Of a stretch of 38,032 nucleotides of DNA, positions 10,707-13,442 are shown in pieces. The stretch covers positions 1-38,032 of the forward strand of contig PVWI01000020.1 in assembly GCA_003003725.1 (NCBI GenBank), read 5' to 3'. The stretch is from a filamentous cyanobacterium Phorm 6. Lineage in GTDB: Bacteria; Cyanobacteriota; Cyanobacteriia; Cyanobacteriales; Microcoleaceae. Position numbers and translations under genes: made by a program. The notes beneath the pieces were generated by a model. That model had not been told where the DNA came from. It did not search any database and saw nothing but the letters and a program-made list of their open reading frames with translations. Each line of letters begins with the position of its first letter. The first letter of the stretch is position 1.

Positions 10707-11192
10707 TTAAGACATTGACTGAGCAATATAATCAAAATAAGGAGCAGCTTCCTTAGCATCATCCTGATTGAGCAAAGCCAAAGAAGCTTCCTTCAAACAG
10801 CGGATAGCTTCCACCATCCCAGGAACAGGAACGCCCAGAGAATTGTACATTTCCCGAACGCCAATCAAACCGATAGTTTCGATCGGCTCCTTGTCACCCG
10901 CCAAGATACCATAGGTAATCAGACGCAAGTACCAGCCGTAGTCTCGCAGACACAAAGCCCGTTCGCGTTGGCCGTAAGCATTACCTCCGGGGGAGATAAA
11001 ATCAGGGCGTTTTTTCCAGAGTTTTTTGCTAGCTTCTTCAACAATTTTTTTCTCACTGTCAGAAAGCGCAGTAGCAATACGCACCCGCTGTTCTCCCGTT
11101 TTAAAAAAATCTTTGATGCTTTGAAGTTCGCCGGTACTGGGATAGCGAAGTTCGTCGTCGGCTTGGAGAATAAATTGGCTAACTACGCTCAT
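10707..11192 (-). CDS. apcD: Allophycocyanin alpha-B subunit
   Basis: A 161-aa phycobiliprotein, the family's usual length. The sequence [23 protein letters not shown] and the phycocyanobilin-binding [17 protein letters not shown] (chromophore Cys at about residue 81) identify an allophycocyanin; the specific residues throughout ([29 protein letters not shown]) favour ApcD over ApcA. ApcD is a terminal emitter of the phycobilisome core and passes energy mainly to photosystem I. It stands alone, as apcD usually does. The upstream region is occupied by a structured element (11252-11628), so its promoter either lies within 60 bp of the ATG or has been displaced. Confidence 0.92.
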
Positions 11193-11251
11193 AAAAAAAC
11201 TCGGTAAGTGGGAAACTAAAAGTCTTTAGACCTGAGAGAAAAAGGCCGCGA

Positions 11252-11628
11252 GCGGTTTTAACCGCCGTGAATCCCCTTGCGGGGTAGAGGGGTATGGTTG
11301 CCCCTCTGCGGAGATATGGTTGTCTCCAAGCCCTTACGGGTAATGTTAGCTTCGCCAATGTTATGAGAGCTTTTTATATCTGCAACACTGTTTCAGTGAC
11401 TTTAAAACTGTTTAATTGCAGATGACAGAGCAAGGAACTAGCTACGCATCCCAGGGTGTCATGACTCAAATAACGTAGTCAGTTAAGACTTAGGCTGGTC
11501 AACACAGCTTGCTCGATTGCTCTTACAAGCTCAGTGGCACTTAGCCCTGAGTTGCTGACTGTTATTCAAAAAAATTGAGGATATTTCAGAGTAAGATTAA
11601 TTGACATTCTCATCCCTTAAAGATGAGA
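11252..11628 (+). ncRNA. Candidate structured RNA / ORF-less IS200-IS605- or HEARO-like element
   Basis: A chain of hairpins runs through this stretch: GCGGTT/AACCGC (11252-11265), CCCC-TTGC-GGGG (11273-11284), AGAGGGG/CCCCTCT (11286-11307), GGAGA/TCTCC (11310-11327), CCC-TTAC-GGG (11331-11340), a nested pair ATCTGCAA/TTGCAGAT (11378-11423) enclosing CACTG-TTT-CAGTG, AGCTTG/CAAGCT (11506-11531), and finally TCTCATC-CCTTAAA-GATGAGA (11608-11628), preceded by TTGACAT. The last part resembles the subterminal right-end hairpin of cyanobacterial IS200/IS605-type elements, from memory of that family. G-U pairs that extend two of the stems favour the plus strand. No protein is encoded. Hairpins are seen; element identity is inferred. 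Confidence 0.4.
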
Positions 11629-12029
11629 TTATTGCTGGGGCGATTTACTTGGCTTCTAACATTTATCAACCTTAGAAGTAGCAGGTAAATCTCAGCAAGC
11701 GTTATGCTTAGCGTTCAAGCCAGTTTCCCTGTGTTCCAGGGTACTGCGGGAAAAACTCAAAAACTGCAAGTAAGAGTTTTGATGTCGGCAGACACTTTGA
11801 CTGTTTAATGAGTTTTTGCTACATCGCCCCAACAGCATATCGCACCGACTCGATCGGGGGCAATCTCCCCGGTTGAAGCACAGGCTTTAGCAGCAAAAGG
11901 TTCAGCAGCAGGAATACAGCCTGTCATTGAACTTGGGTGCGATGGCTTACGCCCCGCTTCGCTACGACTGGCTCTCAGTAAACAGAGAGCGATTTTGCAT
12001 TACCATATTAAATCCTACCACGACTACTT
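11629..12029. other. Intergenic region upstream of rlmD with residual structure and a dispersed repeat
   Basis: No gene seen. It contains an imperfect stem (GATTTAC...CTTC at about 11642-11656 against GAAG...GTAAATC at about 11673-11689), a CCCTG-TGTTC-CAGGG hairpin at about 11729-11743, and a GCGATGGCTTACGCCCCGC repeat at about 11940-11958. This last repeat is a reverse-orientation relative of the insert that broke the gene at 10162. The rlmD promoter should lie in the last 100 bases but is not obvious. Confidence 0.5.
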
Positions 12030-13442
12030 GTGACCAAATCTAAATTCCCTACCCCAAACTCTACGAAATTGGCAAACCCTTGCCAGCAAGGTCAACTGAT
12101 TGAGCTTGAGATTACCGACTTGACAGACACCGGCGACGGAGTTGGTCGTTACGATGAGCTCGTTATATTTGTGTCCGATACCGTTCCGGGCGATCGCATC
12201 CTGGCTCGCCTCGTGCAAGTCAAATCCGGCTATGCTACAGGCAAGCTGGACACACTTCTTTCAGCATCCGAACACCGCATCCGAGCCAACTGTATTGTCG
12301 CCGACAAGTGCGGCGGCTGTCAGTGGCAGCACGTAGATTATGAATATCAGCTTACAGCCAAGCAAAATCAGATAGTTCAAGCTTTAGAACGGATTGGCGG
12401 ATTTAGCGATTTGCAAGTCGATGAAATTTTAACGGGAAAAATCGAGGGATTTCCCCAATTTTTGGGATATCGCAACAAAGCGACTTATCCCGTGGCAGTT
12501 TCTGCGACAGGTCAAGTCCAAGCAGGTTACTATCAAAAAAGCACCCACAAATTAGTCAATCTGAATCAGTGTCCGGTGCAAGATCCGCGCCTCAATCCTT
12601 TGTTAAAAGAAGTCAAAGAAGACATCCACTGGAGGGATTGGCCAGTTTACGATGAAAAGAAACATACAGGAGAATTGCGTCACTTGTCCTTACGAATCGG
12701 ACGGCGCACGGGCGAGATGCTGCTAACTTTAATAGTTCGCACTGGAGAATTGCCGGGAATCGAAGAACAAGCATCTGAGTGGCTGAATCGCTATCCTCAA
12801 CTGGTCGGTGTTTGTTTGAATGTAAATTCAGCTCAAACTAATGTAATTTTTGGTGCAGAAACTCGCTGTATTGCGGGTCAGTCTTATTTGCGAGAAAGGT
12901 TTGCTGGCTTGAACTTTCAGCTAAGGGCAGATACTTTTTTCCAGGTAAATACAGAGGCTGCTGAAGCGTTGTTGGAAGTGATTGTCGGGGAATTGAATTT
13001 ACAAGGAAACGAGGTTTTGGTGGATGCTTACTGCGGCATTGGGACTTTTACTTTACCGCTGGCGAAACAAGTGAAAATAGCCATTGGTTTGGAAGTGCAA
13101 CCGGCGGCGATCGAGCAAGCCAGATTAAATGCTGAATTAAATGATTTGAGAAATGTCGAGTTTCAGGTAGGAACTGTAGAGAATTTGCTGCCTACTTTGG
13201 GATTGACACCGGATATTGTACTGCTAGATCCGCCGCGTAAAGGGTGCGATCGGGCGGTTTTGGAAACAATCAAGGAAATCAAACCAAATCGCATTGTTTA
13301 TGTTAGCTGCAAGCCTGCTACTTTGGCTCGCGACCTCAAGATTTTGTGCGAAAATGGGGATTATAAGTTAGCGCGGGTGCAGCCTGCGGATTTCTTTCCT
13401 CAGACTTCTCATGTGGAGTGTGTGGCGTTTTTGGTGAGGTAG
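12030..13442 (+). CDS. rlmD: 23S rRNA (uracil-5-)-methyltransferase, RlmD/RumA type
   Basis: A 470-aa protein started at the GTG at 12030. It begins with a TRAM domain (residues about 20-80, LIELEITDLTDTGDGVGRYD), followed by an iron-sulfur cluster motif CIVADKCGGC at about residues 90-99 with a fourth Cys near NQCPVQDP. The methyltransferase domain shows motif I VDAYCGIGTFTLPLA and the catalytic LLDPPRKGCD plus VYVSCKPATLARDL with its nucleophilic Cys. The family methylates C5 of a uridine in 23S rRNA; the exact target (U1939 or U747 type) is not readable here. The gene has no clear ribosome site. Confidence 0.9.
   Translation: MTKSKFPTPNSTKLANPCQQGQLIELEITDLTDTGDGVGRYDELVIFVSDTVPGDRILARLVQVKSGYATGKLDTLLSASEHRIRANCIVADKCGGCQWQHVDYEYQLTAKQNQIVQALERIGGFSDLQVDEILTGKIEGFPQFLGYRNKATYPVAVSATGQVQAGYYQKSTHKLVNLNQCPVQDPRLNPLLKEVKEDIHWRDWPVYDEKKHTGELRHLSLRIGRRTGEMLLTLIVRTGELPGIEEQASEWLNRYPQLVGVCLNVNSAQTNVIFGAETRCIAGQSYLRERFAGLNFQLRADTFFQVNTEAAEALLEVIVGELNLQGNEVLVDAYCGIGTFTLPLAKQVKIAIGLEVQPAAIEQARLNAELNDLRNVEFQVGTVENLLPTLGLTPDIVLLDPPRKGCDRAVLETIKEIKPNRIVYVSCKPATLARDLKILCENGDYKLARVQPADFFPQTSHVECVAFLVR

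Follow-up and report, generated by a model that had tools for sequence, protein, structure and literature searches.

The locus studied here raises the question of what kind of element lies in front of apcD and why it lies exactly where it does. The window, a 38,032-nucleotide stretch of contig PVWI01000020.1 from the filamentous cyanobacterium Phorm 6, carries on its minus strand an intact ORF of 161 aa (10707-11192; Pfam Phycobilisome, PF00502), which we take to be apcD following its earlier naming. For the region upstream, the original prediction had proposed a structured, ORF-less IS200/IS605- or HEARO-like RNA at 11252-11628. Folding bore out the strong structure of this stretch (z of -4.1 on the plus and -5.3 on the minus strand, with 0 of 100 shuffles equally good on either strand), and no ORF of at least 80 aa was listed in it, in line with the proposed absence of a protein gene. 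A search of the whole window against Rfam returned two matches, one to a distant tRNA and a single minus-strand match to HEARO (RF02033) at 11559-11340, which scored 153.8 bits against a cut-off of 83 and spanned positions 1-211 of the 211-position model, that is, the full-length scaffold. The proposed HEARO identity was confirmed by this match; the strand had to be corrected, as the RNA runs on the minus strand from 11559 to 11340, the sense strand of apcD, and a plus-strand RNA was ruled out. The covariance-model match, together with the 12 HEARO matches present in the genome, also meant that two of the three outcomes named in advance as counting against the prediction (no covariance-model hit and no copies elsewhere) did not occur.

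HEARO or omega RNAs are parts of IscB elements, IscB being a relative of the ancestor of Cas9, and they insert at ATGA or GTGA. At this locus, the 148 nt between the scaffold and apcD held no ORF of at least 80 aa; an iscB gene is absent downstream of the scaffold, and the element lacks a nuclease gene, as had been predicted. The segment 11340-11559 of the window is a HEARO/omega RNA without a nuclease gene, within a mobile element. An ORF-less HEARO is in itself of a known kind, and the part worth following is its exact and recurrent seat at host start codons.

The ends of the element were obtained by searching for apcD in relatives, among which 22 loci of the same genus matched the gene well. 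In 20 of them the native leader was joined directly to ATGAGCGTAG (ATGAGCG junction), and because these leaders run directly into the apcD start, the element was delimited as 11193-11559 on the minus strand, a complete ORF-less HEARO element of 367 bp. It starts with GTCAG at the first base of the HEARO match (11559), and it ends with a run of T followed by ATGA (11192-11189), which is the target site and predicted TAM and in which the apcD start codon lies. Between the scaffold (11340-11559) and the right end there is a hairpin-rich part (11239-11339); the fold of 11193-11340 had a z of -2.9, with the final 11 nt unpaired. The right end itself (11193-11238; type A, ...CTCAGG..TTTCCCACTTACCGAGTTTTTTT) was common to other copies and is now the immediate leader of apcD. 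The displaced native leader, present in the element-free relatives, occupies 11560-11750 on the same strand (far limit approximate) and holds a hairpin at 11608-11628; its 16 nt directly 5' of the element (11560-11575) adjoin the scaffold and are the predicted guide, 16 nt being the usual guide length. The ends first given, 11252-11628, were replaced by 11193-11559 on the basis of the empty sites and the shared right end, and the description of the element as lying upstream of apcD was right in linking it to this gene but understated the relation, since the element touches the start codon.

The TTGACAT motif and hairpin at 11602-11628, originally read as an IS200/IS605-type right end, proved to be native leader: the TCTCATCT arm of the hairpin was found in the apcD leader of 17 of the 22 same-genus relatives, which have no element there. 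Three others (L017, L032, and L033) carried a variant of the hairpin as judged by eye, and the leader was lost in two. Across the genus the native apcD leader keeps this hairpin, which is possibly a regulatory element of apcD.

The final ten leader bases, TTGAATAACA, which stand 5' of the HEARO in the window, preceded ATGA in 15 of the 22 relatives, and all 16 predicted guide bases did so in one (L021). No HEARO above the gathering score was found in the 20 relatives' apcD loci (of 22) that were run against Rfam. Two relatives, G006 and G023, had neither a HEARO nor the native leader, and a copy of the right end stood directly before apcD; a tree of apcD and its downstream DNA, built to date these remnants, gave long and doubtful branches and was set aside. 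The final ~46 nt before apcD were also considered as an ancestral leader, a candidate that was rejected because 20 of the 22 relatives lack this sequence and other elements carry it.

The genome of the window contained its 12 HEARO matches at E <= 0.001, 9 of them over the cut-off. Seven of nine ORF-less copies ended at a gene start, namely those of apcD, rplM, rplR, a FraC-family gene, a bifunctional-nuclease-domain gene, a DUF4079 gene, and an actin-like gene (the actin-like and rplR genes were scanned with Pfam through their orthologues L138 and L121, respectively). The remaining two were L161 and L162, the latter lying 46 nt before a murC-like gene in the sense orientation. At rplM, for which a single match was found in this genome, the element lies between the leader and the ATG, and this site was empty in all 17 same-genus relatives. 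The L13 protein is essential and the only rplM found lies behind the element, so translation must start behind the right end.

A scan of this genome for the type A right end gave 15 matches with at most one mismatch, against 3 for a control pattern. Beyond the known copies, these comprised a right end standing alone in front of gnd and three copies that lack a HEARO. The latter (L328, L335, and L337, on G000 contigs C131, C433, and C486) shared 219 identical bases and a type A right end, had no HEARO match, and represent a shorter HEARO-less derivative, non-autonomous in two steps. Separately, a 172-bp stretch of the Cetobacterium somerae plasmid NZ_CP143322.1, a fusobacterial plasmid from far outside the cyanobacteria, was 77% identical to the element region of the window (match H5), which may reflect wide transfer or a mixed record.

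A survey of the genus was used to examine how often such insertion occurs. HEARO was present in all 29 genomes, that of the window included. The 117 loci used were mainly the best-scoring among the matches listed, not every listed place being taken; of 29 further loci (L045-L073), three (L070-L072) were left out. Insertion points were set by the right end, which was assigned to type A (...CCCACTTACCGA...T before ATGA), type B (...GGTTTCTACCCATTTTTCTG before ATGA), or type C (...CTCGTTTTTTG before GTGA), with patterns that were widened after misses had been seen. In 94 of the 117 loci a right end was recognised; judged by the 3' flank, these make up 84 distinct sites, of which 74 are ORF-less. 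The 23 loci in which no right end was recognised were excluded; ten of these were IscB-bearing and two ended at a contig end within 72 bases, and at least one of the excluded loci, L148, looks like a further start-codon site.

At 54 of the 74 distinct ORF-less sites an ORF of at least 60 aa opened at the insertion point, and at 47 of them one of at least 90 aa. A Pfam match was obtained for 44 of the 54 ORFs and none for the other 10; with three IscB-bearing sites included, 47 of 57 ORFs of at least 60 aa were matched. Three shorter ORFs, psaI, petL, and rpmJ, also had Pfam matches. The families found at these starts included ribosomal proteins L13, L18, and L36, SecG, GrpE, trigger factor, class II tRNA synthetases (ThrS and LysS by reading), argininosuccinate synthase, and heme oxygenase, and such elements also preceded the start of photosynthesis genes (psaI, petL, PsbQ-like, Pbs27-like, and CP12). 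Insertion at host start codons is recurrent, and some of the genes hit are essential.

Two nulls were compared with this position. In 400 kb of G021, 161 genes with [AG]TGA within their first 30 codons stood against 1124 non-coding [AG]TGA sites (12.5%), or 17.8% when ATGA alone was considered; at the latter rate, the binomial chance of 47 of 74 is 4e-18. The local null, which draws from the candidate sites no more than 300 bp away from an insertion, in neighbourhoods that hold the hit start by selection, gave 24.3 expected against 45 observed among the 69 of 74 sites that it covered (the flanks of the other five were too short), and none of 200,000 simulations reached this number. Between the nulls, the start-codon excess therefore ranges from about 2-fold to about 5-fold. 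Among sense sites, 58 were at a start and 6 within 100 nt upstream as read by eye, compared with 125 and 200 in the background; the 58 comprise the 54 ORFs above, psaI, petL, rpmJ, and a sqdB-like start cut by a contig end, which was recognised by eye and has no Pfam match. Ten of the 74 sites were neither at a start nor near upstream of one. Of 17 IscB-bearing copies, 6 stood at the start of an ORF of 60 aa or longer, and in 3 more the ORF ran off the locus.

The same start codon can be hit more than once. The gnd survey consisted of L333/L338 and the gnd loci of 25 other genomes. Among the 26 genomes with a start-bearing gnd match, a type A right end stood directly before the start in 8, a type B right end with a HEARO of 137.9 bits in one, and neither in 17, so that one start codon has been hit by different element types. 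All eight type A gnd loci were scanned and none had a HEARO over the cut-off, one of them (L343) being cut by a contig end soon upstream. Right ends without a HEARO before both gnd and apcD indicate that right ends can outlive their HEARO. Likewise, one and the same start of a DUF697 GTPase gene was hit by an element of type A in G017 (L046) and by one of type B in G021 (L059).

In other genera, HEARO was found in 32 of 60 genomes of an even sample of the order. Nineteen of the 21 new loci were read; seven were ORF-less, one of them cut by a contig end, and at four of these seven a plausible gene opened at the expected place, as judged by eye without Pfam. In Planktothrix and Scytonema, where 27 of 30 loci were read, 13 of 20 ORF-less loci opened a gene at the insertion, again by eye and without Pfam (Planktothrix rubescens PCC 7821, 6 of 7; Planktothrix PCC 11201, 2 of 2; Scytonema NIES-4073, 5 of 11). 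HtrA-like and DUF1802 genes were hit in Microcoleus and, by resemblance of their first residues, seemingly in Scytonema too. At locus L377 of Scytonema NIES-4073, an ORF-less HEARO appears to have entered a PIN-domain-like gene at an ATGA within it, as judged from the resemblance of the residues that follow.

A possible partner for the ORF-less RNA is encoded elsewhere in the genome of the window, where contig C21 holds an intact IscB gene of 426 aa with RRXRR and HNH domains. This gene adjoins a divergent HEARO of only 75 bits, below the cut-off, and the C21 IscB may therefore not accept the RNA of the window. A second IscB gene (L158, G000:C261 20900-25780) was in two pieces ~2.4 kb apart; a match to a group II intron (Intron_gpII) lies on the same strand, after the HEARO and before the second IscB piece. 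In L128 of G012, the sequence after the HEARO begins in the same way as in L158. The genome also holds two Y1 transposase genes. When the HEARO of the window was compared with the 116 others used, the closest included L098 of G020, an IscB-bearing type A copy with 89.5% identity, from whose lineage the copy of the window probably stems, as judged from this identity.

We considered that these findings are best explained by a non-autonomous, ORF-less HEARO of the IscB family inserted exactly between the apcD leader and its start codon and kept there by a mechanism that may be called 'leader capture'; to this account as a whole we give an even chance of being correct. The scaffold, the insertion point, the intact apcD, the empty sites, the intact IscB gene, and the positional excess were observed directly. 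The apcD transcript, made from the host promoter, would consist of the guide (16 nt of native leader), the scaffold, the right-end leader, and apcD, and the host promoter would thereby supply omega RNA for an IscB encoded elsewhere. IscB made in trans would bind this RNA and cut the empty apcD allele, where ATGA comes directly after the guide sequence, and the element would be kept as a result. The right end, which is rich in U and has no Shine-Dalgarno motif, would act as a new translation start region. Such a motif was found in 0 of 54 right ends (last 20 nt), as against 10 of 54 displaced leaders (last 18 nt), and initiation that is independent of Shine-Dalgarno sequences and dependent on S1 has been reported for cyanobacterial rbcS (a title cited in PMC6847405). 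With the right end as part of the gene's leader, only precise excision would be harmless. Start-codon copies would thus persist because the host promoter makes the guide RNA and the right end joins the leader of the gene, and retention of this kind would be the cause of the start-codon bias. Several observations weigh against this account: the predicted guide is exact at the empty site in only 1 of 22 relatives, so that IscB may cut those alleles only weakly; the HEARO beside the C21 IscB is divergent; IscB-bearing copies also lie at start codons; the local null leaves an excess of about 2-fold; and a scan of 11150-12040 found no sigma-70-like promoter.

The presence of IscB-bearing copies at start codons makes targeting at the time of insertion a serious rival, in which the transposase or the target DNA favours start regions through an extended motif or through single-stranded, AT-rich, transcribed DNA, with no retention afterwards. 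The A-rich flanks around the site would suit it, as would the preference for starts when these are compared with the remaining sense [AG]TGA up to 100 nt away (58:6, with 125:200 in the background); however, A-richness after ATG is also typical of start regions themselves, and the right ends kept after loss of the HEARO point to retention. We regard targeting without retention as improbable. A simpler reading, somewhat more credible than targeting and still unlikely in our judgement, is that of an ordinary, now inert HEARO remnant, inserted wherever [AG]TGA occurs, for which starts are merely common and harmless sites near genes. It agrees with the [AG]TGA target at all sites, which follows from how the sites were defined, with the third of sites that the local null places at starts by chance, and with the ten sites that fit neither a start nor its near upstream. 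It accounts less well for an excess that survives both nulls, for a scaffold that is complete and high-scoring, and for gnd and DUF697 GTPase starts that were each hit by different element types.

We also considered that the scaffold, with or without IscB, might be kept as a riboregulator controlling the translation or transcription of apcD. Its position in the sense leader of apcD and the like arrangement at psaI, petL, PsbQ-like, Pbs27-like, and CP12 genes would fit such a role, but it is not conserved at apcD (the scan of 20 relatives' loci gave no HEARO over the gathering score), and the target genes are very mixed; this reading appears very improbable. Leader capture followed by retention remains the reading we prefer for the apcD element. 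Its extension to the family, namely that cyanobacterial IscB/HEARO elements systematically capture start codons, with expression from the host promoter, a guide taken from the leader, and a right end that becomes obligatory leader, is put forward tentatively, at rather less than even confidence.

Comparison with known systems sets the element apart in several respects. It resembles the HEARO RF02033/IscB omega RNA in that the whole scaffold model is matched, at the left end of the element, with ATGA at the right junction, and it differs in having no iscB gene. We know of no mention of a seat at a host start codon in the description of the HEARO family. Stand-alone ORF-less omega RNAs of IscB systems exist, for example in Ktedonobacter, and share a scaffold without a nuclease gene and an IscB elsewhere in the genome; in contrast to these, the copies described here have been placed to the base, the majority of them abut a host start codon, and the right end now lies in an mRNA leader. 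MITE-like leader insertions are likewise short, non-autonomous elements in 5' leaders, whereas the apcD element carries the whole scaffold of a nuclease guide and abuts the start codon without a gap.

In PMC11870625, the guide RNA of IS200/IS605 TnpB is treated as a means of retention or as a gene drive: the guide carries a record of where the element inserted, and the nuclease, by cutting the empty site, favours the element. An insertion-site guide and cutting of the empty site, as shown for TnpB, would apply to the apcD element as well, which differs in belonging to the IscB family, in its left-end guide, in a nuclease available in trans only, and in its start-codon target. A 2021 study of the cyanobacterium Limnospira left HEARO RNAs out of consideration as remnants and called for an examination of their precise location (PMC8400943). 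A start-codon position of HEARO was not reported in the available parts of that study or of PMC9755519, PMC13180657, PMC11870625, PMC9956272, PMC6847405, and PMC12286853. In the open-licence literature, a scope outside which the founding HEARO and omega RNA papers lie, nothing was found on the exact seats of ORF-less HEARO copies.

If the pattern holds, it would account for the expression of ORF-less copies that lack their own promoter and for their being tolerated beside essential genes. Two questions would also become open to testing: whether guide RNAs derive from host mRNAs, and whether the end of a transposon can act as a translation start region. If the family-wide reading is true, a mobile element would become the obligatory 5' leader even of essential genes, and each such host mRNA would double as the precursor of a guide RNA used in trans by an IscB.
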